From a virus: a DNA stretch of 41,773 nucleotides. Both the position numbers and the translations under genes were made by a program. Shown piece by piece: positions 5,401 to 41,232 of the stretch (positions within the stretch are counted from its first letter, which is position 1; each line of letters begins with the position of its first letter). The DNA lies in IMG/VR virus record IMGVR_UViG_3300021792_000002, positions 1-41,773 of that record. One strand, 5' to 3'. Under the pieces are notes generated by a model. That model searched no databases and was not told the DNA's origin. It was given only the letters and a program-made list of their open reading frames with translations.

Positions 5401-8400
5401 TAATTCACATCTTTATCACGGATAATGAATTTTGGATCCTTGTATGTTTTATTCGATGTTATGAATAAAACACCAGTCGCACTTGGATTAGTGATAGGTA
5501 ACTTAGTATCTACATAATCTTTTCTAGTTAAACTATCATTCTCGTATGGGTGATATTGAGTTGTTGGTGCAACTCCCTCTTTCATATCAATCGAAGCCGA
5601 ACCGTTAATAGTAAGTTTCATTTTACCATTATCGAAATCTCCAATCATCAATCCCGTTCTAACTTGGTCAACACCAGCGTTACGTGAATAAAATCCACTC
5701 GATGACATCACCATTTCAGTATCCGAATTATGTGATTTTAACACATATTGTGCCTTGTAGAACTTATTAGAAGTTAGATAAACTCTACCTGTTGGATTTG
5801 GATTTATAATAGGTAATTTAGTATCTACATAATCCTTTCTAGTTAAACTTCCAGGTCCAATTGGGTCGTACTTAGAGAATGGTGCAACTCCGGCTGATAA
5901 TTCAAGTGGAGTATCACTATCAACATTCAAATTCAATTGTACCGAATTAACACCTCGTTTGATTTCAAATCCGGTTGTTAATGATCCACTTCCTTTTAAA
6001 TAAGAATATATCCCCCTATCCGTAATTTTTAACTCTCTATCAGTTAAACTCGAACTTATCACAAATAATGGATCCTTATGTGATTTATTCTCCGTAAGTT
6101 TAAGTTGACCCGTTGCACTTGGATTAATAATAGGTAATTTAGTGTCTACATAATCCTTTCTAGTTAAACTATCAGTTTCATATGGATGATATTGAGTTGT
6201 TGGTGCAACACCTTTATCTATAACAAGTGATGTGTCACCCTCGGCCCCAAGATGTAAATGTATTCCGTTATCACGATTAATCTCCAAACCAGTCTTTAAT
6301 GATCCACTACCATTTGGATATGAATAGAAACCACTATCAGTAATTTTTAATTCATGTGATTGGACTGATGAACTTATTGTAATAGTTGGATTCTTCTTAT
6401 TCGATTTATTATCATTAAGTACAAGTTCACCTTTTGCATGTGGGTCGACAATTGGCAATTTGGTGTCTACATAATCTCGTCTAGTTAAAGATCCGGAAGC
6501 AAATGGAAAATATGGTGAAGTTGGTGCAAGACCTTCCGACATCGAAAGTGACACTTTATTATTCACCATTAAATTCAGATGTGGTGATTTACCCAGATCA
6601 CCTTGTTTGATTTCAACCCCAGTCTTAACCGTATCATCATTTTTTAAATATGAATATAAACCACTATCAGTAATTTTTAATTCCTGTGGTTTAACCGATG
6701 AACCTATCACAAATGATGGATTCTTATGTAATTTACTCTCCGTAAGTTTAAGTTGGCCCGTTGCATGTGGGTCAATAATTGGCAATTTGGTGTCCACATA
6801 ATCTCGTCTTGTTAAAGATCCAGATTCATATGGATAGAATGGTGTTGTTGGTGCAACGCCATCGTTCAACTCCAACGTAATAGTATCATTGATTACAAAA
6901 TCAACATGTCGATTCATACAATCAATATTCATACCCGTTGCCTGAATTTTTGGTTCCGTTGTAGTCGGTTGGTGATACGTAATAATACCACTTTCCGTAA
7001 TAGAAGTCCTGTAATCCCCTTGACTCAATAATATCTTTGGATTGTCATCCTTACTTTTGGAAATTGTCAATATTCCACGAGCATGTGGATTAACTACATC
7101 TAGTTTCTGGCCCAACCCAAGATCAACGTAATCCTTTCTAGTTAAACTATCTCTACGCGATGGTGGATATTGAGTTGTTGGAGCCAATTCTTTCCTTAGT
7201 TCCAACGAAACATCACCACCAACACCAAATCTCAATCTCATAAGATCCGTCTTTTTAGACATATCAATGTCAAACCCAGTCCACTCATCCTCACTACCTT
7301 TATGATATGAATAGAAACCACTATCAGTAATTTTTAATTCATAATCCTTGTATTTTGAGGAAATCTTGAATATTGGGTCCTTGTAATCCTTGTTGGAAAT
7401 AAGTTCCATCTTACCGGTTGGGATTGGATTTATGATAGGTAACTTAGTATCTACATAATCTTTTCTAGTTAAACTTCCCGATGCATGTGGTATATATGGA
7501 GTCGTTGGTGCCACGCCTGAATCGAACGTTACCGAAGTTCTTCCAAATATATCAATTTGCATTCTGTTTATAATGTGGTCAAACACAATTCCGGTTCTAC
7601 TAGGTTTGTCACCGGTACGTCTTGTATAGAAACCGGTATCCGACATCACAATCTCATGATTGGTTCCGTAGTCCGTTACAATAAATTGGGCTTTCTCATC
7701 ATTATTCTTTCTTAAAACCATTTTACCGGTTGGTTCCGGATTTTTAATAGGTAATTTAGTGTCTACATAATCTTTTCTAGTTAAACTACCACTTTCGGCT
7801 GGTGAATATGGAGTCGTTGGTGCAATTCCACGTTCAAATTCCATTGAAATACGGCCACCAACTTTAAGTGCCATAGTTTGCCAACCTTGATTGAATGTTA
7901 TACCCGTTTCCTTTGTAGAATCTGTAAGTGGATATGTATAAAAACCACGTTCCGAAATAAGTATTTTCCTATCAGTTTTATTTAAAATAATAGTAGGTTC
8001 TTGGTCCTTATCCTTTCCAATGGTTAGGATTCCGGTTGCAACCGGATTACTAACATTCATCTTTAACGATAATCCAAGATCAACATAATCTTTTCTAGTT
8101 AAACTTCCTGATTCGGTTGGTGCATACTTAGTTGTTGGTGCCATTAGTGGACCAAGTTCCATTGTAGAATGTCCATCAATTTTGAACTCGATATGGTTTA
8201 CATCTTTATCTTTTGGAGAATCAGGTTGTGCCTGTGTGTCTCGTATAAAGAACATTCCCATATCCTTGTAAATATCATATTTTGGATATGTAAACACCCC
8301 AGCATTGGTCAACGTTGTTACATAATCCACATTACTTTGAATTATAGAAATTCTCGAATTCGGTTGATCATCAGTTTCAGTAATAATGAACTCTCCCCTA

Positions 8401-11400
8401 GCCTTTGGATTTAATATAGGTAACTTAGTATCTACATAATCTTTTCTAGTTAAACTACCACTTTCAGTTGGTTGATATTTTGTTATTGGTGCAGTACCCT
8501 CTCTCAATACAATTGATGGGTCGTCATTAACAACAAGTTTCACAACATCAGTTTCACCAGTCTCATCACCATTAATAAGAATACCACTTTTCCCTGATAT
8601 ATCTTCATTGTTTGGATTTGATTTGTCATAAAATTTACTAGGTAGAGGATCCTTTTGAGCATAAAACCCTAGATCATCCACGATGAAATTAACTCCACGG
8701 TTGGAAACAATGTATTGTGGGTCATGATCTTTAGTTTTTCTAATAATCATCTGTCCAAGTGGACGTGGATCTATTATATTCAACTTCAAAGAAAGACCGT
8801 AATCTACATAATCTTTTCTAGTTAAACTTCCCGATTCGGTTGGAGCATACTTAGTTGTTGGGGCAAGACCCTCATTTATTTCAAGTGAAAATTTAGATTC
8901 TGCTCCTAAACGAAGTTTATATTTATTTCCAGGTGACGATGGTTTATCCGATTTAACAGGATCGAAGAACATACCAACTCTTGTGTCAGCATCATCAATA
9001 TCACGAGAATAAATACCGTGATTATTAATAACAACCTCTCGATCTTCCGTATCTCCTCGATCATCTATAACAATACGTGGAGCTTCACCGTTAGGTCCCT
9101 CGGTCATCATAAGTGTTCCAAAACCCTTTGGATTTAATTTGTCCATTTTCTCGAACAACCCACTATCAACGTAATCCTTTCTAGTTAAACTATCTTTATG
9201 TAATGGTGGATATTGCGTTGTTGGTGCAACTCCCTCTTCCATTTCAATAGATGTGAACCCATTAACATCCAAACGTAATTTAGTTGTCTTGAAATCATCG
9301 AACATTAACCCCGTTCTAACTTTATCATCACCAGCCTTACGTGAATAAAAACCAGTTTCAGACATCACCATCTCTGTATTGCTATCCTTACCGGTCAATA
9401 CATACTGTGCCTTGTAGAACTTATTAGAAGTTAGATAAACTCTACCATTCGGTTCAGGATTAATAATAGGTAACTTAGTATCTACATAATCCTTTCTAGT
9501 TAAACTACCACTTTCCTTTGGTTCATATTTTGTTGTTGGTGCAATACCACCAGTCAATTCGATAACAGTGTCACCATCAACTTGTAACCTCATTTTATGA
9601 TTTACATGGTCTAATAATACACCACTTTCTTTATTAGGTTCGGCATTTGGTCTTGAATAAAATCCAGATCCCGCCATTACAATTTCGTAATCCTTAGTTG
9701 TGTCACGAACTATGTATTGTGGTATAGTATGTTCCAAACTTTCACCAAGTATCATGATTCCCATCGCCTTTGGATCGAGAATAGGTAACTTAGTGTCAAC
9801 ATAATCCTTTCTAGTTAAACTAAATGACTCCGTTGGTTGGTATTTTGTTCCAGGTGCCTTACCATCTTCAATCACCAACGATGTTTTTCCGTTTACACTG
9901 AAATCCATTCTAGCATTGGTATCACGATCGAATGTCATTCCTGTAAATTTGGAATGGTCGTCTTTAGGACGTGTAAAGAAACCTTTATCAGACATTATAA
10001 TCTCGTGATCCTTTTTAGTTTCACGAATAACATACTGTGTTTCACCTGATTTTAAACTATCCAAAACAACTTCCCCAAATAAATGTGGATTGTATTTTTG
10101 AACATACATATCCAATCGACCATCCAAGTAATCTTTTCGTATCAAACTCTCGTCAGCGGTTGGGGCATATTTGGTTGATGGAGCAACTCCCTCTTCCAAT
10201 ATAATCGAAGTTTTACCGTCTACCTTAAATCTTACCAAATTGTTAGTTTGGTCAAATATCATACCGGTATATTTCATATTATGATTACCCATACCACTAT
10301 TTTGAGAAGTATCTTCCCTATGGTATGTGTAGAAACCGGCATCCGACATTACCACATCATGGTCTTTATCAGTCTCACTTAATACTATATGTGCACGTTC
10401 CTTATCATTTTCTTTAAGGATCATTACACCCGTTCCAATTGGATTATCCTTTTGTAATTTATTATATGCTGGTTCCCATGGTACCCAAAATGTTCCGTCA
10501 TGTTCCCATTTCAAACCAAGACCACCATCAAAAGTAAATCCTAATTTTCCTGGAATATTAACCGGTTCTTCTGTTGTTCTAATTTTTGGTTCGTATGAAA
10601 CCGTGTTATTAATCTCATCGTTTGAGAAAACAACAGATGGCCAAATACCATTCTGTACCGCTTCATCCCCGTTTCTAACAGATGTTCCGGTTGGAGCAGG
10701 TCCTATCAAATTATCACACCCCTTGAATGCATCAGTTCCATTCTCTAGTGAACTAAAGTTTAACTCCTGAATTTTATTCAAAGAAATACAATCTTCCCAT
10801 GTACTAATGAATTCAACACCTTGTGAAAAATCAAATCCTCCAATCGAAGATAATTTTGAACACCCTTTCCAAGTTTTATTAAATACCGTAATGTTACAGT
10901 CTCTTCCCCAAAGAAACTCTTCTAAGTTTACCAAATCAGTGAAAGAACTTTCCAAACTCGTCAGTGTCTCACCGTTGATTACTTGGATTTTTGTAATGTA
11001 TTCACCATTTAATAAATTCTTGAAATGTGTAATAGGGTCATTACTATAAATTGTCCAAGTTTTGGTTTTTGGTCCATTCCATTTAGTATGAATTTCACCA
11101 CCCGCAACCGTTAATGGTAATGGGTCCTCTTGACTCCAAACAATAATCTCTAATTTGTTTGGTAATACCCAAGTCCCCTTTACCGCATCATTTCCATCCC
11201 TAACACTCGTACCTTGTGGTGCTGGTGAAATTAGACTATCACATCCATAGAACGTGTCAAGTCCATTTTTCTTTTCTTTTAATCCACTAAAATCAAGTTC
11301 TTTTATTTCAACCAATCTCGAACAGTGATTCCATGCACCACTGAACATTGTACCATGTGAGAAATCCATTTTAGGGAATACCGTAAGAGAATCACATAAA

Positions 11401-17234: not shown

Positions 17235-17594
17235 CTAGTTTCCCTCTCTAAATTTTTGGTAATTATCTAATAGTGATGATATATTCGTTTTACCAACGGG
17301 ATTTGCTGATTGAATTACATAATCGGGTACATCCAAATTAGTTTTCATCAAATAGTCTACCAACCATTTTGTACAATCATATCCATTATTGGTACCACTA
17401 CCCAAATCATGGTCAAATGCGATAGTTGTAGGTAATCCATTTTGTGAAATATATGAAACAAATTCATCATACGTTTTTACCCAAACCAATCGACTACCGT
17501 TATTTCCACTAAATTCAGGTACATAATCATCCAACCAAGTTTCAATAAATGGATTCCGAATGTCATCCAACCAAAGTAATACTTTATTTTTCAT
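17235..17594 (-). CDS. Cyclic-phosphate-processing receiver-domain (cpREC) protein
   Basis: A 119-residue, single-domain protein. The motifs LWLDDIRNPF (residues 7-16), TIAFDHDLGSG, NNGYDCTKWLVDYL and VIQSANPVGKTNI are those of the cpREC family, a receiver-like fold predicted in the literature to handle 2',3'-cyclic phosphate ends in RNA repair or cyclic nucleotide systems. It lies 3 nt after the preceding hypothetical gene and is followed by a terminator, so the two form one unit. In this phage it fits with kinase, ligase and CCA-adding domains encoded near 34-39 kb. Biochemical activity is inferred from the family only. Confidence 0.8.
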   Translation of the reverse strand: MKNKVLLWLDDIRNPFIETWLDDYVPEFSGNNGSRLVWVKTYDEFVSYISQNGLPTTIAFDHDLGSGTNNGYDCTKWLVDYLMKTNLDVPDYVIQSANPVGKTNISSLLDNYQKFREGN

Positions 17595-20979: not shown

Positions 20980-22611
20980 TTATATGTTTTGTAAATCCTT
21001 AACATAGATTTTACCAAAAAATTCAGGTCTAACAACTTTCTTAGCGTATCTTGTCATTACACCTCTTCTTGGAGTAAAGTTTTCAGGATCGTACACCAAT
21101 GGAGTCATGATTAATGGTACATATGGTGCGTAAACTGCTCCACTCTCTAGGAAGTTAGAACCTTTAAATCCTAATAAGATTTCGTTAGAAGTCATATAAG
21201 GGTTTTTGTAAACAGTAAATCTATTTGCTAATGAACCAACTGTTGTTACACCAGCCGCGAATGAAGTAGCATCTTTATCAGCGTTTACTGTAAATCCTGG
21301 GATTGATTCCAAAATAGTACATACATCAGGAGAAGCAACTACGAAGTTAGCTCCACCTCTCATTGTTAATTGGTGAATTTTGTTAGAAACTTTGTTCAAC
21401 TTAACACCTAAAGTTTGGAACCAAGTGTTCTTTTGATAAGCAACACCTGCAACAGCTCCACCTACCCATTTTCCACTAGCCTTATCGTACTCTTGTCCGA
21501 TTGTAGCTGACCAATATTCAGTTGTAAGAGCCGCTGATTTCAACATATCTAAAATCTCTAAATCAATTTCCAAAGAAATGTATTCAGATAACATAGAAGT
21601 TAATTCAGCCTCTGCATCAATTGAATGGTAAGCGTTTAAGTCTTGTGCTAATTCAGGAGTCCAAACAGCTTTAAGTTTTCTTGTCTTAGCAACAATTGCT
21701 TCAGACTTAAGTTCTAAGTCAATCTCTGGAATATCTAATTTCTCTCCTACTTTAGTTGATTCATCAGTTTTACCAGCCTCGAAATCTCCTCTGTGCTCTG
21801 CAACAGTTTGCTTAGAATATTTAATCTCTAATCCTTTTGTAAGTTTCCCTGCAGTATTAGGAGTTTTTGTTTTTACAAAAACAATAATTCTATCACCCTC
21901 AACTTTAGTATGTGCTGGGAAGAATGCATCCTTATCGAAATCAGTATCTTGAACCGATGCAAAGTGGAAAGAACGTACAGCCGTTAAATCCGGATTTGCA
22001 AGAGCAGATGATGCAAATGATAACTTAGAAATAAGTCCACCACTAACAGCCGCCTTTAAAGATGGGTCAAAGTTTACATCCAAATCAGTAGCAACTTCAA
22101 CAGTTACTTTTCCAGGTACAAGAGTTGCTTCAACATCATTAATAGAGTAACTATATCTACCCTCACCGTAAAGACCGTTTACAGCCTCATCAGTTGAACC
22201 AAGTTTTATCCCGTTACCACCGAAAAGTGATTGGTCTTTAAATGCTGGGTTTCCAGGTTGGTTTGATCCGTATTTAAAATCAAGATAGAATATAAGTCCA
22301 CTTGGTAAGTTCATTGGTTGAACAGAAACGAACTCTTTAGAAGCAATTTCTCCAAATATTCTTCTTACTAATGGTAGTGCAACTCCACTCCACTCTTCTG
22401 AACCAGCTGAAGTACCTGTTGAAGTAGCTTCGTCTAATAGTTGTTTAGCTTGGTTCTCAAGCAATACTGAAATTTGTCCTTGTGATCTTTCGTCAAGACC
22501 TTCAAGTAATCCAGTTTGTTCCCATTTACCTCTTAATGCTCTCGTCTCTTCAAGCATTATAGATTGAGGGTTTTTACCCTCCATTAATTTTGATAAATTA
22601 AAATCTGACAT
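20980..22611 (-). CDS. gp23: Major capsid protein, gp23-like
   Basis: A 543-residue protein, close to T4 gp23 (521). The N-terminal 61 residues are helical and charged, then LLDE61-A62TSTGTSAG follows. This fits the (I/L)xE rule of the T4 prohead protease and the roughly 65-residue N-terminal peptide removed from T4 gp23. The following GVALPLVRRIFGEIASKEFVS and VQPMNLPSGLIFYLDFKYG are standard for T4-like capsid proteins, as are LEIDLEILDMLK and the C-terminal ARYAKKVVRPEFFGKIYVKDL. It lies 21 nt after the scaffold gene and ends in a strong terminator, so the two are cotranscribed. Its codon use looks more uniform than the surroundings, as expected for a very highly expressed gene (impression only). 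Confidence 0.95.
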   Translation of the reverse strand: MSDFNLSKLMEGKNPQSIMLEETRALRGKWEQTGLLEGLDERSQGQISVLLENQAKQLLDEATSTGTSAGSEEWSGVALPLVRRIFGEIASKEFVSVQPMNLPSGLIFYLDFKYGSNQPGNPAFKDQSLFGGNGIKLGSTDEAVNGLYGEGRYSYSINDVEATLVPGKVTVEVATDLDVNFDPSLKAAVSGGLISKLSFASSALANPDLTAVRSFHFASVQDTDFDKDAFFPAHTKVEGDRIIVFVKTKTPNTAGKLTKGLEIKYSKQTVAEHRGDFEAGKTDESTKVGEKLDIPEIDLELKSEAIVAKTRKLKAVWTPELAQDLNAYHSIDAEAELTSMLSEYISLEIDLEILDMLKSAALTTEYWSATIGQEYDKASGKWVGGAVAGVAYQKNTWFQTLGVKLNKVSNKIHQLTMRGGANFVVASPDVCTILESIPGFTVNADKDATSFAAGVTTVGSLANRFTVYKNPYMTSNEILLGFKGSNFLESGAVYAPYVPLIMTPLVYDPENFTPRRGVMTRYAKKVVRPEFFGKIYVKDLQNI

Positions 22612-24685: not shown

Positions 24686-25270
24686 TTATGTTAATTCTTG
24701 AATTATTTCCTGCATAATTGAATGTGATTTACAATATTTATCACAAACAGGTGGTGCATCTTTTATAATACTTTCATTCATACCTCGCATAAACGCTCCG
24801 TGTGTAGATGGATTTGAAACAAAATCCCAACCGATTAAATCAAAATCATGTCCTACCTTTACACCACCCTCACGTAATGGAGTTGTTGAACCCATACCAC
24901 GTGAAGAAATTCCAAGTAAAATATTAGCTCTCAATAATTCTTTCAAAATATTTCCTGATGGTGTTGATAAAATCTCAACGGTACCAACCACGTCATCGCC
25001 TTCCCAATGTACCTCACGTATATTATGTGAAACATTTTTTAAATTGATTACCGATGAATCTGGATGATCTAATTCACCTAAAGCTCTACGTTCTTTAATA
25101 AGTTGTTGATATTTCTCAACCTCTCGTTCCAAAATTGCTTTAGGATAAATTCGATTATTTTGATTAGGTACATTCGCACGTTGGAGAACACCTGAAACAA
25201 GTGTTACTCCATTTTCGTCCGTATGAACTTTCCCCTCAAATAATTGAGTTTCTATTAATAAATTACTCAT
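24686..25270 (-). CDS. gp21: Prohead core protease, gp21-like
   Basis: A 194-residue serine protease of the T4 gp21 (peptidase U9) family that matures the prohead by cutting scaffold, capsid and internal proteins after (I/L)xE. Landmarks are VLQRANVPNQNNRIYP, RRALGELDHP with the likely catalytic His69, NILLGISSRGMGS with Ser122/Ser123, and DLIGWDFVSNPS with a conserved Asp149. A C-terminal GMNE-S near residue 166 could be a self-cleavage site. Zymogen activation of T4 gp21 inside the prohead is established. Here the gene is directly downstream of the 507-residue candidate substrate. Confidence 0.93.
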   Translation of the reverse strand: MSNLLIETQLFEGKVHTDENGVTLVSGVLQRANVPNQNNRIYPKAILEREVEKYQQLIKERRALGELDHPDSSVINLKNVSHNIREVHWEGDDVVGTVEILSTPSGNILKELLRANILLGISSRGMGSTTPLREGGVKVGHDFDLIGWDFVSNPSTHGAFMRGMNESIIKDAPPVCDKYCKSHSIMQEIIQELT

Positions 25271-25282
25271 AGTTTCAATATG

Positions 25283-26806
25283 TTATTTTCCTACAATAGG
25301 TACGTTATTCTTCTTTGCCACTTTTTCTACGAAATTTACAACTGTTTGTGTTACATTACCATCAACAACACCTACCAAATCAATGGCATGTCCGTTAGAT
25401 GTTGCAATCGTATTATGTGGACCTTTCAACTCATACGTTTTTCCGTTTTTTCTCACGTACCAACTTGCATTTGGTTTTTGTTTCTCGATAGCGTAATCAA
25501 ACATCCCAGTCACAAATCTTTCAATCGTTTCCTTATCTGCCTTCTTTAAACGATACCCAGCAACTTCGGTTATACTTTCATTTTTTGGTCTAGTATCCCA
25601 TGTTACCTTTAACCAATTTTTAGTTGCCGCCTTACGTCTGTGTTTTGACGACCATGGATCTACCTCGTACCAATTATTCTTGAAATCTTCAAAATCCTTT
25701 GATTTCTTTAGTACGGCATTTATTTCAGATGTTGTAAATCTCTCATCAAGTGATTCTTTTTTAGATTTACTGTTCCAAATAGTCTCTAAATATTTAATAC
25801 CCTCTTTGTTTTTTGGGAAATCAGAATATTCATCGAAAAATGCCTTAACGAATGATTTGAAATTCTTAGATTCGTTGGCCAATGTGTCAATATCAGATGA
25901 AACACTTTCGTTTATACTTTCATTCACGATTTTTCCTTTAGGATATTTAACACTTTGTTTAACAGTCATATTGGCATCCCTAACATGTACATTCAATGAA
26001 AGTGATTTTAATGATTTATCATTATATCTATGTCTTACCACACTTACACGAGTTGCCATAATAACATCATCAACCGGTCTTTTGTAAAACTTAGAAAGTG
26101 CTATAATAGTTTTGTTTTTTCTCAACTTATTATAAAACTCTTGTTCTGCCTGTCCAATTGGAGTTTTTATCCATTCCTTATTCTTAGTATATGGTATATC
26201 AGTTTCCTCTTTCAAACTATCAAAACGAAAATCCCCTTTTGCCATTCCCTCTATTGATCTAACTCCTAACAAACCTCGTTTAGATTTAGGTACTTTGAAA
26301 AGTTTGATTGCCTTTTGTTTTGCATCGTATAAATCCTTACCATCTATTTCTACTTTTTTATCATTATAAAAAGCAAGATATTTGTGTTCGTTTACACTCT
26401 CATTCTTCTTATGTTTCTCCCATGATTTTTTAACACCATCGAAAAACTCTTTCTTTTCTTCATCACTCATATCAGTAATTTTCTTACCCGCCTTTACAAG
26501 TTGCATTTTAAAGAAATCCTGATATTCCGAATCTTCTAGTAAGTCGTCTGTCATTTCGTTAATTGATTCTGAAATTTTTAATTTTGATTTGATTTTTTTG
26601 ATAACAACATTTACCGATTGATTTCCATTCATTGTAAGTATTTTCTTACCGTTACGGAATATGTCATTTTCAAATTTATTCTTTGGATTTTTCTTAATTA
26701 CCCAAATTCCTTTTAATTTCTTTAGTTCCTCATCCAATGCTATTTCATAAACAGCAGGTAATGATGATTGTGGCCAAATTGTGCCTTCATTTACCGATTT
26801 ACCCAT
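25283..26806 (-). CDS. Prohead-region multi-segment protein with repeated ES(I/V/L)xE linkers
   Basis: A 507-residue protein, not recognised as one family. It is divided by a recurring linker: VNE7-G, ISE80-S/INE84-M, VNE140-H, INE300-S, LDE355-R, ITE414-V, typically in the form NES(I/V/L)xE. These fit the prohead-protease consensus. Between linkers are small domains: residues 85-140 (a helical SDEEKKEFFDGVKKSWEKH segment), 141-200 (YLAFYNDKKVEIDGKD), two copies of an approximately 50-residue repeat (302-350 and 358-409, each ending near W and K/R before the next linker) and a C-terminal domain with SWYVRKNGKTYEL. It replaces the T4 gp67/gp68 core genes by position. Inferred role: an internal head or scaffold polyprotein cut during maturation. 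Confidence 0.65.
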   Translation of the reverse strand: MGKSVNEGTIWPQSSLPAVYEIALDEELKKLKGIWVIKKNPKNKFENDIFRNGKKILTMNGNQSVNVVIKKIKSKLKISESINEMTDDLLEDSEYQDFFKMQLVKAGKKITDMSDEEKKEFFDGVKKSWEKHKKNESVNEHKYLAFYNDKKVEIDGKDLYDAKQKAIKLFKVPKSKRGLLGVRSIEGMAKGDFRFDSLKEETDIPYTKNKEWIKTPIGQAEQEFYNKLRKNKTIIALSKFYKRPVDDVIMATRVSVVRHRYNDKSLKSLSLNVHVRDANMTVKQSVKYPKGKIVNESINESVSSDIDTLANESKNFKSFVKAFFDEYSDFPKNKEGIKYLETIWNSKSKKESLDERFTTSEINAVLKKSKDFEDFKNNWYEVDPWSSKHRRKAATKNWLKVTWDTRPKNESITEVAGYRLKKADKETIERFVTGMFDYAIEKQKPNASWYVRKNGKTYELKGPHNTIATSNGHAIDLVGVVDGNVTQTVVNFVEKVAKKNNVPIVGK

Positions 26807-29984: not shown

Positions 29985-31166
29985 TTATTTGACCAACCAA
30001 GAAATATCCTCATCTCGACCATTTACATCCATAGACCATGGATTATCAGAATGAACCGAATTTCCACCGAAAACGGCAGTGCTTGAATGTTGTGTAATTG
30101 CATTCAACGATGATTGTGTTAAATCAAGTTGTTCATTTATTAATCGTAATGATGTATCACGTACCCATAATCCGATTGCTAACGACATTACCAAATCATC
30201 ATTGTACCCTTTCATTGCTTCCGGTCGGTTGTTTATGTACACAAATACAAACAATTCATCCAATGTCCTACTACTACGGATTATCAAAGTATTCTCACGT
30301 ATATTCATTTCCAACTTTGAAATGATCAACGGACGAGTTTTTGATGTAGTGGAAAATCCAGGTTTCATGTTCTTTTCCTGTGAATAATATTTGTTCGTCA
30401 TTTGTCGAAGTGTGTCCACATATTTCAAATCCGAACTCATATAAAATAAATTGGAATATTCCCTATCAATTATTTGTTGGATAACTGCCCAACCGATATT
30501 TGCGTTCTCCACAACTAGAAGTGCGTTGTTATATTCAGTTGCTAATGCCACGAGAAAATTACCGTACTCCTTTGTTCCAATTTTACCACGATATTCGGCC
30601 ACCTGAACCATACTCGAAACTTCAATTACATGACATGCCGAGTAATCCTTTCCATCACCACGAGCAACGTCGGCAGAAACTATATACTGTTTTGTGTAAT
30701 CCGGATATTCCCATTTCCAAAGATTACCATCAAAACCGGTCTTTTCCAATGGTTCTTGAACGAATGTTTCTTTATAAAATGTCAATATTTCAGAATCAAC
30801 AACGGTTTCTCCTGAACTGACGAATGAAACATCACAATTATGTGTAATTAAATTATTATCCGTTATAAATAAATTACCGTTACCAACACCAATAACATCA
30901 TATAAATCAACGTCGGTTTTGTGGTATGTAATATCATTGATAACAATAACTTCACCATTTGATGTGTCCAATTGGTCAAAAATCTCCAATGAATGTGCAA
31001 CTTTCTCATTTCCGTTTACTATCCACACATGATTGAGTGAACAAACGACCTCGGAATCATTCGACAGATATAGTTTCAAATATTCATGTTTTTTAATTTT
31101 CCGAATACCATCGAATTTTTGAAACCCGTTAGGTGTTAATATTTCTATATTTTTTTGGTTTTTCAT
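29985..31166 (-). CDS. terL-C: Large terminase C-terminal part: C-intein plus nuclease domain
   Basis: A 393-residue protein. Residues 1-110 are a C-intein: block B-like VVCSLNHVWIV, then LYDVIGVGNGNLFI and the terminal NNLITHN followed by Cys111, the canonical splice junction. Residues 111-393 are the terminase RNase H-fold nuclease: CDVSFVSSGETVVD at the linker, VSADVARGDGKDY (Asp166), LLVVENANIGW (Glu220) and GYNDDLVMSLAIGLW (Asp323/Asp324), equivalent to the T4 gp17 catalytic acids. Protein trans-splicing with the upstream product would give a terminase of about 524 residues. Alone this protein lacks the packaging ATPase. It starts 3 nt after the stop of the N-terminal gene and in the same frame. 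Confidence 0.93.
   Translation of the reverse strand: MKNQKNIEILTPNGFQKFDGIRKIKKHEYLKLYLSNDSEVVCSLNHVWIVNGNEKVAHSLEIFDQLDTSNGEVIVINDITYHKTDVDLYDVIGVGNGNLFITDNNLITHNCDVSFVSSGETVVDSEILTFYKETFVQEPLEKTGFDGNLWKWEYPDYTKQYIVSADVARGDGKDYSACHVIEVSSMVQVAEYRGKIGTKEYGNFLVALATEYNNALLVVENANIGWAVIQQIIDREYSNLFYMSSDLKYVDTLRQMTNKYYSQEKNMKPGFSTTSKTRPLIISKLEMNIRENTLIIRSSRTLDELFVFVYINNRPEAMKGYNDDLVMSLAIGLWVRDTSLRLINEQLDLTQSSLNAITQHSSTAVFGGNSVHSDNPWSMDVNGRDEDISWLVK
30837..31166 (-). other. C-intein (110 residues) of split TerL intein
   Basis: From Met1 to Asn110 of the downstream gene, ending HN with Cys as the first extein residue. The segment IEILTPNGFQKFDGI resembles the start of the C-part of AceL-TerL, an atypically split intein with a very short N-part known from metagenomic terminase genes (from memory). 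Confidence 0.9.
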
Positions 31167-31169
31167 ATT

Positions 31170-31979
31170 TTACATCAAATTATACAATTCTTCCAACGTA
31201 ATTTCCGATATATCACCATCATTACGAATAGTTACCTTATGGTCACCACCTAAACATTCTTGAGCCGCCCCCTTTGGTCCCAATAGTCGTTCTTGTTCGT
31301 CTCTCCATGCCTGATCTCTTTCAGGGTGTACACTCCAATGGAGTTTTATAGTATTAAATCCATTACTAGATGCATTTACCCAAGTCTTATGAAAGAAATT
31401 TCCCACACCATTTGGAGTTGAAAGTATGATTGCAGATCCACCGGTAGATAAGGTAGATTGGGCAGAAACCCATATTTCCTCAATCTCATTAATGAATGCC
31501 GCCTCATCAAATACCAATAACGATAATGCTTCCGAACGACCGGCATCCCCACTAGAAGATGTTGCTTTTATTTGAGAACCGTTTTTATAACGAAGTGAAA
31601 GTTTGTTGTCCTCAACGGTAGGTTGTTTTAACCATGATGGTAAATATTGGTTCATGGTACGTACTTTCGTTACCAAGTTTTTTGCCACCTCTTGTTTGGT
31701 TGCAATTACCAATACATTATAATCTTCTGTAAATATCATTCTCCATAAAGAATAACCGGCAACCAAAGTTGATATACCGGTTTGTCTTGATTTCAATACA
31801 ATATTATACCTGTTATCTTTAAATTCTGTTAAAGTTTCTTCCTGAAATGGAAATAGTTCAAATGGAATTTTTCCACGAACGGGATGTTGAATCATACAAT
31901 ATTTCTTCATGAAATGTATTGGATCCTTTGAACATCTTACATATTCCTTTTTTATTATATCTCGAATTGAAACTGCCAT
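31170..31979 (-). CDS. terL-N: Large terminase N-terminal part: ATPase domain plus short N-intein
   Basis: A 269-residue protein. Residues 1-241 are the packaging ATPase: FPFQEETL, Walker A-type LKSRQTGIST (62-71), Walker B LLVFDEAAF (Asp158, Glu159) and the coupling motif LSTPNG. Residues 242-269 (CLGGDHKVTI, then 18 more residues) are an N-intein beginning with the catalytic Cys242, and then the gene stops. The break falls after GAAQE, at the ATPase-nuclease linker, where other terminases continue with a segment like the CDVSF that begins the C-extein. The product needs the downstream gene for nuclease function. It lies 4 nt after the 216-residue membrane-protein gene. Confidence 0.93.
   Translation of the reverse strand: MAVSIRDIIKKEYVRCSKDPIHFMKKYCMIQHPVRGKIPFELFPFQEETLTEFKDNRYNIVLKSRQTGISTLVAGYSLWRMIFTEDYNVLVIATKQEVAKNLVTKVRTMNQYLPSWLKQPTVEDNKLSLRYKNGSQIKATSSSGDAGRSEALSLLVFDEAAFINEIEEIWVSAQSTLSTGGSAIILSTPNGVGNFFHKTWVNASSNGFNTIKLHWSVHPERDQAWRDEQERLLGPKGAAQECLGGDHKVTIRNDGDISEITLEELYNLM
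31173..31256 (-). other. N-intein (28 residues) of split TerL intein
   Basis: Cys242 to Met269 of the upstream gene. CLGGDHKV matches intein block A (CLxGDTxV). At 28 residues it is far shorter than usual N-inteins (about 100) because the break is before block B, as in AceL-TerL type inteins. Confidence 0.9.
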
Positions 31980-33362: not shown

Positions 33363-34535
33363 TTACAATAAATCTTTCAAATAAATGTCATAAGGATCAA
33401 CTTCCTCATTCATTCTCTTCAATTTATTTTTAATATCAGAAATTAATGGTAAAATCTTTTTATCAATTGCATTGGTACCACGTTTTCTATCTTTACCGAA
33501 CAATCCTAAAAATGATTTGTAAACTCGTTTCACTTTTGGTTTAGATTTTAAAATCTTCACTAATTCCGGAATTGGAATGAAATTGTAGTTTACATCTAGT
33601 TCGGATATTTCCGGTCCACTGTATGGTTCTATCTTGGAAAACTTTTCTTTGTTCTTTTCATAAAATTGTAAGAATAAATAGGATAACCCCTCGACCATTT
33701 TTAATTCCGGTACTATTTGTTTCGTTTTGAAATCAAAATCACCTTTTTTAATTATAAATGTAATTAAATCCGTATGTAATTGTTTCAAATTGGAATTATT
33801 TTGTTTGGCCTCCGGTGTATATCGTGATTGTGTTTTTTCACGGGCCTTTTTCGTGTACATCGGGTCTACCACCTTTGCATTTACAAACGTACCACCATTA
33901 TCAAAACTGAAAACTATTCCCTCTATTGCCTTTGATGTACCGTTGTGTAATGCCGTTGATTTTAACGATGGATTTAAAATTGAAATGATGTATGAAGTGA
34001 AAGACTCCGTTTCAAATTGATTAAATAAATCATCCCACGGTGTCATTAAAAACTCCGTTAATTTTACACGTTGTTCGGCTGAAAGTTTACCGTAAAAAAT
34101 TACAGGTGGTGGTGAAACTTTCAATAATTTAGAAAATGTGTTCAATTTGTTTACATCCGTAACCATATTACCGTTTTTACTTACATCCGTTAATATTAAT
34201 CCGTTTTTTGGTAATTTATCGTAAACAATTGAACCCGGATTGTTGTTGGCGAAATATTCAAACCCAAATAATACATTCTTAGGTATTGATGAACGATTCA
34301 ATCCCTCAATATGTTGAATCGCTGGTTCGTACATTTTCATCATCGTTCTGTCAATCATGTTAATTGGATTTTTCATATCTCGTTTGTAAAAAACCAAATC
34401 ATCATCCACACGTTTGAATGCAAATCTCGAACCATCTATCTTCTCACTTACATATACTTTGTTTCTGAATAGAGTTTGTACAAAAGATAATCCTTTTCCA
34501 TCGTACAAATCTTTTAAATGTGTTAATCCTGCCAT
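33363..34535 (-). CDS. RNA/DNA ligase-like covalent nucleotidyltransferase
   Basis: A 390-residue protein. It shows the motif series of ATP-dependent ligases and capping enzymes: motif I EKIDGSR with candidate lysyl-AMP Lys32, motif III-like LFGFEYF (89-95), motif IV EGIVFSF (205-211) and motif V NAKVVDP (Lys221). The C-terminal 170 residues are helical and unfamiliar, and end in KRMNE-EVDPYDIYLKDLL, with a possible protease site. The family joins nucleic-acid ends. Together with the kinase, HD and CCA-adding domains of the gene upstream, RNA end repair is the likely theme. It has its own host-type promoter 18 nt upstream and its own terminator. DNA versus RNA specificity cannot be read from the sequence. 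Confidence 0.68.
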   Translation of the reverse strand: MAGLTHLKDLYDGKGLSFVQTLFRNKVYVSEKIDGSRFAFKRVDDDLVFYKRDMKNPINMIDRTMMKMYEPAIQHIEGLNRSSIPKNVLFGFEYFANNNPGSIVYDKLPKNGLILTDVSKNGNMVTDVNKLNTFSKLLKVSPPPVIFYGKLSAEQRVKLTEFLMTPWDDLFNQFETESFTSYIISILNPSLKSTALHNGTSKAIEGIVFSFDNGGTFVNAKVVDPMYTKKAREKTQSRYTPEAKQNNSNLKQLHTDLITFIIKKGDFDFKTKQIVPELKMVEGLSYLFLQFYEKNKEKFSKIEPYSGPEISELDVNYNFIPIPELVKILKSKPKVKRVYKSFLGLFGKDRKRGTNAIDKKILPLISDIKNKLKRMNEEVDPYDIYLKDLL

Positions 34536-34602: not shown

Positions 34603-37600
34603 TTAATCTAACTCACTTGGTAGTGGCATCTTTACTCCGTTCAGTATTGTGGATTTAAAGTTATCCAAAATTTCTTTTCGGTGGTGTTTGTGTTTGAAAT
34701 CTGAACTCATTACAATTTTATAAATATCCTCAAACGAATTTATATCTTTTACACTGTACTTATCACCAAATATAAATTTAACAATATCTGTTGGATTTTT
34801 TGTAACAGGTACATCACACCCCTTAATAGGTTTACAATTTTTCAACTGTTTACCCAACTTACCCTCATATGATTTTATTTGAGTAATTAATCCTTTCTTT
34901 TGTGATAATGTAAATTTTTTGAATTTCTTAACATCACCGTTCTCGAAATATTCGGGTTTATCATCAACATCCATATATTTCACAATAGAGAATAATAATG
35001 CATTTCGATATAACCCTTTATATTTAGATTCGTTCTTAATAAAATTCGGTGAATGATGCATGAATGAACTTAACTCCAAATTATCAGTCAACATCAAATC
35101 AACTTGTCCGAAATTTTCTGAATTTGGTATTGGATATAGGAATGAAACAATTCCCAACCCTTTCATGTGTACCACGTTTTTAAATGATGATTTTACTTTC
35201 TTGTACAGAAACTCCTCAACTTCATCGAATTTCAATCCGTGTTTAGAAGCAATCACATTACCATCCAAAGCAATATCAATATCACCACTAAATTGACCTT
35301 TTGGTCGTTTTCCGGTTGAACCTAATGGTTTTGCATCATTTTTAGTTATACCAATTAATGAACCCAATTCCTTAACAACATCGTTATACATAGGTAATCC
35401 GTATTCGGCTGGTATTGGTGAACCACCGGTTGCCTTTCCACCCTCATTTAGTTTGATTTCCGGTAAAACAAATTCTTCCAACTTATCTTCAAATTCCGAA
35501 ATAAGAGTTTCAATAACCTCGTTATCCAAGTGTAATCCACCACCATCCATTTTCTTTGCAAACTGTTGTAGTTTATCAAATACCGGATTGATTTTTAGTT
35601 TATCTTGTTTAATTGGTTTCATTTTATCGAATTGGTGCATTCTCATATGATTACCAACAATGAAATATACATTATCAGGATCTGCTCCTATTTTCTTGAT
35701 GTCATTAGCAAATTTCTTTACATATTCTTTTGAAACTTTCTCATGACCGTAATGTGTAATATTTCCTTTTTTATTGATACCGGCCGTGTTCGCCTTTCCT
35801 AAATCATGAAACATTGCTGAAACCGCTAAATCCATATCTCCCGGAGCGTGTTTCAATGCACGATTTACAACTGTAATTGTGTGTTTTAAAACATTACCCT
35901 CTGGATGATGTTCTGCACTCTGTGGTACGTTCTTTAAATTCATTACCAACTTTTGTACTTGTGGAGGCATCATTTTCAATAACTCCTTAAAAGTTTTAGG
36001 TGTCTTAACTTCGTTGATTGTTCCCTCACTCACAATAACATCAAATTCACCCTTTGTTGGTTTTTCATATCGTGCCAACATATTATCAATAACATGTGGT
36101 GGAATGTGTTTACCGGTCTCCTTTTCTCTGTTCATCAACCGTTTTTCAAGTTCCTTTCTACTCACGTTAAATACTACCGCCTTTTTCGTATAGTTTTCAG
36201 GAACTCTATCCAACATTCGTTTTCTTGACATTTTACTCATGTTTGTCATATCAACAATGAATGATTTTCCTGATTTCAATGTTTTAACAATGTGATTTTC
36301 TAAATCTTTATTTACATTGTTTTGAATATCTTTATCAGAAAAAGTTTCGTTGTAAGAAATACCATGTTTTTTGGCATATTTGTCTACTATATCATCACGA
36401 GAAATTACTACTTGACCTTTTCCATGTTTAGAAACCCAAGTCGATTTTCCACTCGCGGGTGGTCCAACTAACATAGTTACTGTTGGATTTTCTTCCGTAC
36501 CCTCTTTTAACTTTTTCTTTTCTTGTTTTTCCATATCCACCAAATCATCATAATAATATGGATATTCCATTAAGTGGTCCATTGAAATACTAACGGCAAT
36601 TGATACATCGTCTGAATGTTCTTTCTCGATTTTTGAACCTATCTTTAATTGACGTTTTACATCTTCATAGGGTACATCGAATTTATCAACTACATCTTGA
36701 ATTGTTGGTTTTTTATCAATATCACAGTCCTCAACCTTTTCATTCAACAAGTTTTCCAACCCGTTTGATAATGATTCAAAATAGAACTCCGGAGTTTTAC
36801 GTTGTCTCCAATTGGCCGTTCTCATAATGGTTTTAGCAATCAGTTTGTTTGCCTTCTGAACGAATGGTATGTTGATATTTGTTTGTTTATCCTTAACCAT
36901 TATTTCACGATATTTTTTCAAAAACTCCCCAAAATGTTTTTTACTTCTTGACAATCGTTTGAAAAAATTAATTAGTTCGGGTTTGGTAATTTCCTTACCA
37001 TTACGTGGGTCATTAACTCTATCTAAAAAATGATTTGTAAATTTAACATCAATTGGTTTTAATTTAGTATCTGCTGATTTTTCAACTGTCTTTAAATCAT
37101 CTTTTGTTAAATCCTCATTCAAATACAAGTTAGATTCAACTATCTTAATAAATTTATCAATTGATTCAATTAATTTACGCTTATTTACGTCGTTGTTTTC
37201 TTTCATTACCTTTTTAAATAATTCGTTCTCTTTATCAGAAATCCACTTTCCAATTTCTCTACCTTTTACATCTTTAGGTACATCAGAACCCTTTATTGTT
37301 AATTTAAATTTAATATAATTATCGAAATTCTTACCAATTTGATTACCGAAATCCTTTATTTGCGTCGTTGAAATATTACTTACTTTCTCCAACTTTTTCA
37401 ATGGACTGATATTGGTATCTTTGTTCAATCTCGATAACATAATCAAGAATGTAATCTGTCTTACCTCTTCAGCCGAATATCGTAACTTGTTAAGTTTTTT
37501 ACCTAACACTTTAACATCTAATTTACGTAATAACTTAGAAGTTGTAACTATCGGGTCGTTACTAGTTGAAAATTTCGTATCGAATATCATTCCAGGGAAT

Positions 37601-39513
37601 ACTAATTGTAAGTACCCAAGTTTATACATCATTTTCAAATAACTCGATGGGTCTTTTGCTGATTGTATTGATTTGAAAAATTCATCCTTTATACGTTCAG
37701 GTGAAACTCCTTTTAGAGAAACATCCGATTTCAATGCCTCGTAAGTTTCTTTTTCTAATCTTCCACCGACTCTCGATGTGAAACGTAATGCCCTTAATTT
37801 ACGTAATGGATCTTCTTTAAATCGTTCACTTGCAACACCAACTGTACGTATTTGTTTATTCTTCAAATCAGCAATACCACCAACCAAATCCACGATTTCG
37901 TTTGTGTCCAAATCATAGAATAAAGCGTTGATTGTTAAATCCCGTCTCGCTACATCACCTTTAATATCTGTGTACTCAACTTTCGTGTTCATACGTGATG
38001 TTCCAATACTATCTTTTCTGAATGTTGCTATTTCATCCCCATCAATTACAACTACACCGAATTGTTTACCAACTTCGGTACTATGTAATCCATATTTTTT
38101 AGCAATTTCCAAAACTTCATCAGGAGTTGCATCTGTGGTTAAATCAAAATCATGTGGATTTTTACCAAGAATTGCATCTCGAACGGCACCACCAACAATA
38201 TACAATTTATATCCCTCTTTTTTGAATATCTTATGTAAGTCTTTAATCTTCTTTGGAATTGACATCTTTAATTTATGTTCACTTTCCGTTATAACATCAC
38301 TTTTAAAATCCACGGCCAATCCCTCTTTTACTAATCGTATATTCATAATATTTTTACCATTGATTGTAGGTAATCCCCACTCGTTTTTACCAATGGTTTT
38401 TACTACAACTTTTTTGTTTTTAAATTTACCGGTTAATATAGTATCACCGATTTCAATTGGAATTTCAATACTTTCTGAAATGAACTTATTGAACTCGTTT
38501 GCCAAATCTTCAATTTTTTCAGCATCGTGTCCCGATTGTGTTTGTTGGTTCAAATAATCATCATCAACAATTTGATTATGTATGACTTGATAACCCACCA
38601 TTGATGCCGTTCTTGTAACGTGTTTGAACCACTTACTAAATGCACTTGATGAATATACATCAATTTGGTTATTTGATGTCATTTTACCAATTACACCGGC
38701 TGGATAATAACTCACCGTTTTTGTTGGTCCATTTGGATAATCAGGATGATTTGTTATATCCTCTACTCTACCTTTATCCAACATATCAAATACCGTGTAC
38801 CCAATGTGGGCCGCACGTTTTACCGAAATATTCTTGTAAATTTCCATGTTACGGAAAAATCCAAGTGGTCCATCATCAACGGCACCACCACCAAGTGTAG
38901 ATGTTCCCTCGAAAATGTTCCCATAATTTCCTATTTGTTGTACCCACTTTTCGATTGCCTCTTTTTTAATTGAAACTGAACTCAATCGAGTTGTTATTAA
39001 ATCGAAAATTGATTTATTGAATTTTGGGTAAACTTTTTTAAAGAATTTTTGTTTTTCTTCCGTTGTTCCACTTGATAATTTTGCCCTAACTTCGGATGCA
39101 CTTATATTGTCCCCAAACATTGGAGAAATGTATAAATATCCACCCTCTTTGTACCCAAGTTCAGGTTTTCCATCCCATTTATGGAAATATTTTCCCTTTA
39201 AACGACCTGAATCTTTCTCACTCACCACCGTTACATAAGCGGTTTCTTTTGGATCATATTTTGAAAGAATCTCTTGTGGATTGTATGGATTTTTTACTTG
39301 TACTACCACGTTTGGATCAACTCCGAATAGTTTGGTAATGATTTCCTTTTTCTCCTTAAATGAAAACGGTGATTTGATTGGATCCTGTTTATTAGATGTT
39401 CCAATAAATACATTTTTCTTACCAAACTTTTTAACTAGATTTTGGTAAACTCCGAAGTGTCCTTTGTGGAATGGTTGGAATCTACCACTATATACGACAA
39501 TTGTATTTTTCAT
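34603..39513 (-). CDS. Multi-enzyme candidate polyprotein: NMNAT-like, CCA-NTase, DUF5661, PNK-like kinase, HD, NTase
   Basis: A 1636-residue protein. Domains in order: 1-175 nucleotidylyltransferase (GRFQPFHKGHF, HxGH at 16-19; ISASEVR at 137-143), NMN-adenylyltransferase-like; 203-346 unknown (DDGPLGFF, RAAHIGYTVFD); 350-405 small beta domain; 411-790 CCA-adding/poly(A) polymerase-like (LYIVGGAVRDAILG, HDFDLTTDA, RRDLTINAL); 801-925 unknown (NHFLDRVNDPRNGKEI); 926-1000 DUF5661-like (KIEKEHSDD, MDHLMEYPYYY); 1008-1163 P-loop kinase like T4 Pnk (GPPASGKST, 1017-1025); 1169-1350 HD hydrolase (MFHDLGK, His1236-Asp1237); 1358-1636 nucleotidyltransferase (FSGDIDIALD, VDLMLTD). Candidate prohead-protease sites lie between domains at E202, E347, E410, E800, E925, E1004, E1163/E1168 and E1357. 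The gene has both a host-type and a late-type promoter. An RNA-repair and NAD-related role is inferred. Confidence 0.85.
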   Translation of the reverse strand: MKNTIVVYSGRFQPFHKGHFGVYQNLVKKFGKKNVFIGTSNKQDPIKSPFSFKEKKEIITKLFGVDPNVVVQVKNPYNPQEILSKYDPKETAYVTVVSEKDSGRLKGKYFHKWDGKPELGYKEGGYLYISPMFGDNISASEVRAKLSSGTTEEKQKFFKKVYPKFNKSIFDLITTRLSSVSIKKEAIEKWVQQIGNYGNIFEGTSTLGGGAVDDGPLGFFRNMEIYKNISVKRAAHIGYTVFDMLDKGRVEDITNHPDYPNGPTKTVSYYPAGVIGKMTSNNQIDVYSSSAFSKWFKHVTRTASMVGYQVIHNQIVDDDYLNQQTQSGHDAEKIEDLANEFNKFISESIEIPIEIGDTILTGKFKNKKVVVKTIGKNEWGLPTINGKNIMNIRLVKEGLAVDFKSDVITESEHKLKMSIPKKIKDLHKIFKKEGYKLYIVGGAVRDAILGKNPHDFDLTTDATPDEVLEIAKKYGLHSTEVGKQFGVVVIDGDEIATFRKDSIGTSRMNTKVEYTDIKGDVARRDLTINALFYDLDTNEIVDLVGGIADLKNKQIRTVGVASERFKEDPLRKLRALRFTSRVGGRLEKETYEALKSDVSLKGVSPERIKDEFFKSIQSAKDPSSYLKMMYKLGYLQLVFPGMIFDTKFSTSNDPIVTTSKLLRKLDVKVLGKKLNKLRYSAEEVRQITFLIMLSRLNKDTNISPLKKLEKVSNISTTQIKDFGNQIGKNFDNYIKFKLTIKGSDVPKDVKGREIGKWISDKENELFKKVMKENNDVNKRKLIESIDKFIKIVESNLYLNEDLTKDDLKTVEKSADTKLKPIDVKFTNHFLDRVNDPRNGKEITKPELINFFKRLSRSKKHFGEFLKKYREIMVKDKQTNINIPFVQKANKLIAKTIMRTANWRQRKTPEFYFESLSNGLENLLNEKVEDCDIDKKPTIQDVVDKFDVPYEDVKRQLKIGSKIEKEHSDDVSIAVSISMDHLMEYPYYYDDLVDMEKQEKKKLKEGTEENPTVTMLVGPPASGKSTWVSKHGKGQVVISRDDIVDKYAKKHGISYNETFSDKDIQNNVNKDLENHIVKTLKSGKSFIVDMTNMSKMSRKRMLDRVPENYTKKAVVFNVSRKELEKRLMNREKETGKHIPPHVIDNMLARYEKPTKGEFDVIVSEGTINEVKTPKTFKELLKMMPPQVQKLVMNLKNVPQSAEHHPEGNVLKHTITVVNRALKHAPGDMDLAVSAMFHDLGKANTAGINKKGNITHYGHEKVSKEYVKKFANDIKKIGADPDNVYFIVGNHMRMHQFDKMKPIKQDKLKINPVFDKLQQFAKKMDGGGLHLDNEVIETLISEFEDKLEEFVLPEIKLNEGGKATGGSPIPAEYGLPMYNDVVKELGSLIGITKNDAKPLGSTGKRPKGQFSGDIDIALDGNVIASKHGLKFDEVEEFLYKKVKSSFKNVVHMKGLGIVSFLYPIPNSENFGQVDLMLTDNLELSSFMHHSPNFIKNESKYKGLYRNALLFSIVKYMDVDDKPEYFENGDVKKFKKFTLSQKKGLITQIKSYEGKLGKQLKNCKPIKGCDVPVTKNPTDIVKFIFGDKYSVKDINSFEDIYKIVMSSDFKHKHHRKEILDNFKSTILNGVKMPLPSELD

Positions 39514-39648: not shown

Positions 39649-41232
<1,584 letters not shown>

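Follow-up and report, generated by a model that had tools for sequence, protein, structure and literature searches.

Candidate prohead-protease sites at the module joints of a multi-enzyme chain in a T4-superfamily phage

Described systems and the enzyme chain of the window

In phage T4, the S77 head protease gp21 cleaves after L/I-X-E, and the internal proteins IPI–IPIII and Alt that it processes are packaged and injected (PMC9026906). CTS propeptides direct this cargo to the inside of the T4 prohead; in the case of IPIII, the ten N-terminal residues are enough for packaging (PMC9026906). However, T4 makes one cargo protein per gene, and no multi-enzyme chain is cut into many products. Likewise, the inner-body and ejection proteins of phiKZ and SPN3US are processed by a gp21-like protease that cuts after a short Glu-ending motif, and a large protein mass is injected (PMC10052503, PMC9026906); processing there is mostly propeptide removal from separate proteins, and we found no description of an NMNAT/CCA/PNK polyprotein. 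Polyvalent proteins, according to the accessible part of the survey by Iyer et al. (2017; PMC5512222), combine 2–15 disparate domains in a single phage- or plasmid-encoded protein that is injected, have counter-defence as their theme and are compared there with viral polyproteins. That part of the survey ascribes processing to embedded zincin-like peptidases, with no prohead-protease linker code, and the NMNAT-led family described here was not found in it. Finally, T4-like and jumbo phages have NAD-restoring (NARP1/NARP2) and RNA-repair sets that comprise the same NMNAT, PNK, CCA-adding enzymes, Pol-beta nucleotidyltransferases, ligases and cREC, but as separate genes (PMC7824862, PMC12028318), whereas the present chain concatenates such enzymes with head-protease sites.

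The individual parts are known, from processing by gp21 and the injection of internal proteins to polyvalent proteins (PMC5512222) and phiKZ-type head proteolysis. A shuffled multi-enzyme chain with head-protease-coded joints was not found in the open-access literature, and the statement of a first-pass annotation that no such system is described holds for the chain itself, but not for its precedents among polyvalent proteins and in T4 and phiKZ head proteolysis.

The window, i.e. the whole stretch of DNA analysed (41.8 kb), is an IMG/VR metagenome contig fragment from a T4-superfamily phage. The 1636-residue chain that had been reported in it is real and lies on the minus strand, which also encodes a Gp23-type capsid protein, a portal, a T4-type terminase and an S77 prohead protease. 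From the sequence evidence set out below, we consider that the gene probably encodes a head-cargo polyprotein of the T4 superfamily, cut by the phage's own S77 protease to free packaged enzymes. The ORF and its modules are as follows.

34603–39513, minus strand: enzyme-chain ORF, 1636 aa, start at 39513, TAA stop ending at 34603
38944–39513, minus strand: module 1 (residues 1–190), NMNAT-type adenylyltransferase, motifs GRFQPFHKGH and ISASEVR
38473–38907, minus strand: module 2 (residues 203–347), domain with a VDDGP motif
38323–38472, minus strand: module 3 (residues 348–397, 50 residues), small mobile module, GDTILTGKFKNKKVVVKTIGKNEWGLPTINGK
37144–38283, minus strand: module 4 (residues 411–790), CCA-adding/poly(A) polymerase-type nucleotidyltransferase
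36739–37113, minus strand: module 5 (residues 801–925), mobile module with an HFxDRxNDPRN motif
36502–36738, minus strand: module 6 (residues 926–1004), DUF5661 (Pfam E 2e-10, domain 941–996)
36025–36501, minus strand: module 7 (residues 1005–1163), P-loop polynucleotide-kinase type (GPPASGKST)
35509–36009, minus strand: module 8 (residues 1169–1335), HD domain (Pfam HD E 7e-6, domain 1208–1294)
34606–35442, minus strand: module 9 (residues 1358–1636), nucleotidyltransferase of the Pol-beta superfamily, by modelled fold

Pfam, PHROG and Foldseek thus place several domains of disparate activity on a single polypeptide. Pfam matched the NMNAT, CCA, DUF5661, PNK and HD domains named by the first-pass annotation; the nucleotidyltransferase it had assigned to residues 1358–1636 was recovered as a Pol-beta fold by AF2 and Foldseek, without a Pfam match over the cut-off. 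Module 1 (Pfam CTP_transf_like, E 5e-9; NMNAT-type cytidylyltransferase domain at residues 7–94) is at most 58% identical to its counterparts at 80 IMG/VR loci, and its AF2 pLDDT is mostly 70–94. Module 4 (Pfam PolyA_pol, E 3e-30; tRNA nucleotidyltransferase PHROG 2244, E 4e-64) consists of a PolyA_pol/CCA head at 437–556 and an RNA-binding part at 586–642, while module 7 (Pfam AAA_33, E 5e-22, with AAA_33/PNK at 1012–1152; PHROG 6931, E 2e-38) has a standalone 163-aa homologue in LR756502. The AF2 model of module 9 (pLDDT 92.8) matched DNA polymerases beta and lambda in a Foldseek search of the PDB (best E 7.5e-6, TM 0.3–0.54), and on the strength of this model the module therefore belongs to the Pol-beta superfamily at the level of fold. 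It contains the GS...D(I/L)D motif and a third Asp, with G41, S42, D54, D56 and D115 invariant in alignments A4/A6.

The smaller modules are less easily named. Module 2 is kept at L001, L026, L029, L037, L041, L048 and L079, and AF2 gave no resolved structure for its fold. Module 3 was seen in 42 sequences in varying contexts, and has a counterpart in a 60-aa ORF of LR756502 (L008, 60% identity). Module 5 is conserved across the 17-member alignment A8 and weakly RegB-like: its best match to Pfam REGB_T4 (E 2e-4, 7 of 17 members) is below the cut-off, and the module profile compared with T4 RegB alone in hhalign gave a non-significant probability of 0.3%, so that its identity as RegB is not established.

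Predicted cut sites in the chain and its relatives

All eight sites listed by the first-pass annotation are present in the chain, and VKE397/G, a cluster of LIE783, IVE793 and LNE800 and a second cluster at 1335–1357 can be added (a slash marks the predicted cut). Breakpoints below are homology breakpoints, with the number of supporting chains.

38908–38916, minus strand: predicted cut site IFE202/G (breakpoint at 203, 6 chains)
38473–38481, minus strand: predicted cut site ISE347/S (breakpoint at 343, 28 chains)
38284–38331, minus strand: predicted cut sites VKE397/G and ITE410/S (breakpoint at 397, 26 chains)
37114–37173, minus strand: site cluster LIE783/S, IVE793/S and LNE800/D (breakpoint at 803, 12 chains), possibly an excised spacer
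36739–36747, minus strand: predicted cut site LNE925/K (LNE/DRWQ after the same module in relative L095)
36502–36510, minus strand: predicted cut site LKE1004/G
36010–36033, minus strand: predicted cut sites VSE1163/G and INE1168/V
35443–35517, minus strand: spacer with five sites, VIE1335, ISE1340, LEE1347, LPE1352 and LNE1357/G

Since gp21 cuts T4 core proteins into many fragments (PMC9026906), and the multi-site spacers at 783–800 and 1335–1357 resemble spent core peptides, the products of the prohead protease could instead be core, scaffold or genome-condensing proteins whose enzyme folds go unused after injection. We regard this as unlikely: the NMNAT, CCA, PNK and HD signature motifs of the chain are intact, and the nucleotidyltransferase residues of module 9 are conserved across 24 homologues, in which GS..K......SGDIDIA and QVDLM are invariant or almost so.

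The (L/I)xE motifs of the chain lie at its linkers more often than chance allows, as the first-pass annotation had proposed to examine. Thirteen of the 14 [LI]xE motifs fall within 174 linker residues of 1636, where 1.5 are expected (Fisher p=2e-12, to be read with the domain cores defined by homology-match alignment ends chosen by the analyst), and each of the 8 linkers carries at least one. The control motif [LIV]xD showed no excess (2 observed versus 3.3 expected). When the linker mask was rotated along the chain, a count of 13 was reached at 8 of 1636 positions, and the enrichment holds with linkers widened, shrunk or taken from external matches only.

An NMNAT alignment search found that at least 551 places in IMG/VR encode a relative of module 1; the best 80 of these were fetched, yielding 61 non-redundant NMNAT-led ORFs for comparison. 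At nearly all places examined, the lead NMNAT heads a multi-module chain, with lengths of 639–1968 aa for nearly all ORFs (one is a cut piece of 436 aa). The lead NMNAT is common to the 61 chains, whereas the downstream modules are shuffled. In the closest relative, L095, the HD module comes straight after the CCA module (joint TLNE/E), followed by module 5, other modules and then module 9 at ∼63% identity; joints in this chain read LNE/E, LNE/D, INE/D, LDE/D and LTE/G, and the counterpart of the 1335–1357 spacer is FILPEIKLTE/GGKATGG. Colinear homologues (alignment A7) keep (L/I/V/F)xE at the position of IFE202, as LIKE/AS, LINE/AS, MLSE/AS, KLFE/GS and IIKE/AS. The family also occurs in the cultured Microcystis phage Mel-JY01, as a cytidylyltransferase-like protein of 639 aa with the predicted N-terminus GGLGGHMNHPFD after IIAE, and gene 190 of the cultured Flavobacterium phage immuto carries modules 5 and 6 in swapped order. 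Searches of IMG/VR with the whole chain or with module 2 alone gave no matches, because these seeds are specific to the window; module alignments worked. A plasmid search returned CCA-type matches only, among the matches listed, and in a scan of a genome collection the one good match of phage-like character came from a Pelagibacterales bin (L136), the rest being mostly weak archaeal or bacterial NMNATs.

The chains of relatives (L006, L007, L011–L090) hold extra modules. An HExxH zincin-like module is present in 18 of 62; the others comprise a conserved KCMLGKLPLSLNI module, an EKTDG module of ∼398 aa and small modules of beta type. Gene 182 of immuto joins nucleotidyltransferase-type and NMNAT-type segments to two HExxH-type segments. 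The commonest C-terminal module (GGxxGHMxHPFD, with EKTDG) was considered as a ligase on its motif, for which Pfam, PDB and profile comparison gave no confirmation.

Conservation of the sites in homologues, which had also been raised earlier, is seen at the relatives' joints and homology breakpoints. For breakpoints supported by at least 8 chains, [LI]xE was counted no more than 6 aa away 184 times versus 36.3 expected, and [LI]xE/[GAS] 87 times versus 11.0; the [LI]xD control at these well-supported breakpoints gave 24 versus 36.7. Other controls were enriched 1.3- to 2.9-fold, the highest being Ex[LI] and [LI]xxE, which overlap the ESxNE-type context. With 172 non-redundant contexts, the counts were 62 versus 23.5 for [LI]xE and 28 versus 26.3 for [LI]xD. 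The excess of [LI]xE is therefore 2.6- to 5.1-fold overall and 2.6-fold on non-redundant contexts; pooled z-scores overstate independence because the chains are related.

Fused metabolic enzymes are common, and the chain might be an ordinary fusion that stays uncleaved and works in the infected cell, its LxE motifs a by-product of acidic flexible linkers. The linkers are indeed rich in Glu (29 of 106 in 11% of residues). However, E-richness leaves L/I/V/F at P3 unaccounted for (16 of 29 linker Glu versus 11 of 77 core Glu, p=4e-5), and the sites are therefore not just a matter of E-richness; nor is there an excess of LxD. Moreover, [LIV]xE directly precedes the GGxxGHMxHPFD module in 57 of 57 chains, although this module is otherwise re-joined, and the same site ends propeptides of standalone module 9 homologues (see below). 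We therefore rate an uncleaved fusion slightly lower again than the core or scaffold explanation.

A polyvalent protein, either injected intact or processed by a zincin metallopeptidase embedded in it, is a less probable account still. Such proteins are multidomain, phage-borne and injected, and include Pol-beta nucleotidyltransferases (PMC5512222), and the HExxH motif occurs in 18 of 62 chains as noted above; but the chain of the window is without HExxH, its sites fit gp21 specificity, and an S77 protease co-occurs. An assembly or gene-calling artefact, conceivable for a metagenome contig fragment, is refuted by the family's presence in many independent contigs and in Mel-JY01 and by the other arrangement in immuto, and we give it practically no weight.

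Head protease, targeting peptides and predicted fate of the products

The gp21-like gene that had been placed at 24.7–25.3 kb is confirmed as an S77 protease.

24686–25270, minus strand: prohead protease, Peptidase_S77, gp21 type (Pfam E 1e-27; PHROG 207, E 1e-51)
20980–22611, minus strand: Gp23-type major capsid protein (Pfam Gp23 E 2e-76)

S77 was found in 19 of 20 tested contigs with such chains and in none of 14 control genomes. The Gp23 protein contains QLLDE61/ATS, an (L/I)xE motif at which the capsid protein itself may be matured, and six of its nine (L/I)xE motifs lie within residues 1–61. Prohead proteases act within the prohead, so that cutting of the head-cargo polyprotein would imply its packaging. 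A module 9 homologue of the jumbo phage PA5oct is annotated in its record as a structural/virion protein by ESI-MS/MS. In addition, particles of a schizotequatrovirus (a T4-like vibriophage) were found to contain anti-CBASS proteins as well as NARP2 proteins, which restore NAD, and the authors suggest an immediate counter-defence role for these particle-borne proteins (PMC12028318).

T4 internal proteins carry a targeting propeptide (PMC9026906); most relatives of the chain have one that looks similar, but not the chain of the window. T4 IPII and IPIII begin MKTYQEFIAE/A. Of 60 complete NMNAT chains, 53 start with a comparable site-bearing extension, as in MKGLAKFLVETILGE/AA. In contrast, the window chain (start MKNTIVVYSGRFQPF) is without an N-terminal targeting propeptide, which counts against the head-cargo reading. 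The N-terminus of the KVP40 NMNAT does not look like a targeting peptide.

On many contigs, module 9 has standalone homologues with propeptides whose terminal xE site falls precisely on the polyprotein junction, such as MLKFNQFVNLVLNE/GGNAI, MRYVKLFEQFISE/SGNAI and MIKTFKEFLKLYE/SGNAI; others begin at the junction with Met, without a propeptide. Since the joint, the propeptide end and the plain start coincide, a single module 9 junction is reached by three routes. These propeptides resemble the capsid-targeting peptides of T4 internal proteins in sequence, and may serve as such. In a count over the 1003 ORFs of these loci, [LIVF]xE[GAS] occurs 226 times near N-termini versus 69 times further in, compared with 56 versus 74 for the D variant, 87 versus 115 for K and 54 versus 40 for N, in counts that still include some related sequences. 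Among the standalone homologues, having a propeptide was not found to go strictly with having S77, and two observations here count against the head-cargo reading. Some standalone module 9 homologues (Lak, PA5oct) begin right at the junction and have no propeptide, even though S77 is encoded there, and a clade with LFE/GGAA propeptides (L109, L112, L114, L116, L122, L123, L125, L126; contigs of 60–120 kb) has sites but no S77 detected by Pfam; this clade may use a diverged protease.

According to the head-cargo reading, the chain would be produced together with the head genes and recruited whole, as a single chain, into the prohead core. During maturation the S77 protease would cut each of the linkers after (L/I/V/F)xE and release about nine products, enzymes as well as small modules (NMNAT, CCA-adding-type, PNK-type, HD and Pol-beta-type nucleotidyltransferase, besides the small modules). 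The products would remain in the mature head with the DNA and probably be injected. NMNAT would then refill NAD before phage genes are expressed, while the kinase, the CCA-adding-type and Pol-beta-type enzymes and a ligase-like neighbour would heal cleaved tRNA or other RNA ends; such an enzyme set has been described as phage RNA repair (PMC7824862, PMC2610378). The polyprotein reading of the first-pass annotation thus draws support from site enrichment and conservation, module shuffling, S77 co-occurrence and the targeting-peptide-like propeptides of relatives and standalone homologues, from which we infer cleavage, packaging and injection. We consider it quite likely that the chain is cleaved and packaged, lean towards injection of the products with the DNA, and suggest a role in NAD and tRNA repair tentatively. 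Evenly balanced, in our judgement, is the broader proposal that many T4-superfamily phages load an exchangeable chain of cargo enzymes, linked by nothing but prohead-protease sites, into the capsid, cut it there in fixed ratio, inject it as an instant counter-defence and repair kit, and gain cargo by inserting modules between sites.

If the head-cargo reading is true, the chain would be the first DNA-phage multi-enzyme polyprotein cut by a head protease described in the open-access literature, and would account for the loading of many enzymes in fixed ratio by large phages. The occurrence of (L/I)xE at the joints between modules and behind targeting peptides would provide a simple rule by which injected cargo can be predicted from sequence, as well as a natural design logic by which several enzymes could be put into capsids. 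What T4-like phages inject would become directly testable in cultured relatives.

Other genes of the window

Several further genes of the window deserve mention.

25283–26806, minus strand: second likely polyprotein, 507 aa, beside the protease, with ISE80/S, INE84/M, LKE200/E, INE300/S, LDE355/R and ITE414/V
33363–34535, minus strand: RNA-ligase-like protein (EKIDGS motif) adjoining the polyprotein ORF (Pfam RNA_ligase E 0.0016, below the cut-off)
17235–17594, minus strand: cREC cyclic-phosphate-processing receiver protein (E 2e-22)
2421–14156, minus strand: 3911-aa protein with repeated LTSLENTFxG...EFIWNGDCNV units
39649–41229, minus strand: phage-borne full-length GroEL (NCBIfam E 1e-226)
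31170–31979 and 29985–31166, minus strand: T4-type large terminase in two ORFs

The 507-aa protein consists of short modules, two of them alike, separated by ESINE, ESVNE, ESLDE and ESITE, and from this pattern is likely to be a second polyprotein. The RNA-ligase-like protein is a possible partner enzyme. The cREC protein fits the RNA-repair theme; a cREC homologue lies ∼2.4 kb from a standalone PNK-type ORF in LR756502. The 3911-aa protein had no informative Pfam match, and is probably a repeat-rich host-contact or tail protein. GroEL is encoded directly upstream of the polyprotein; a terminator-like hairpin and a T-run separate the two genes.

The two terminase ORFs are separated by TAA AAT ATG inside an apparent intein, the N-half ending AAQE/CLGGDHKVTI... 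and the C-half reading ...NLITHN/CDVSF. By its sequence this intein is probably naturally split, with a very short N-part. In a second phage (G008, the contig of L041), a C-half that matches residues 4–392 lies in a 399-aa open frame, and a sequencing error is therefore unlikely to explain the split.
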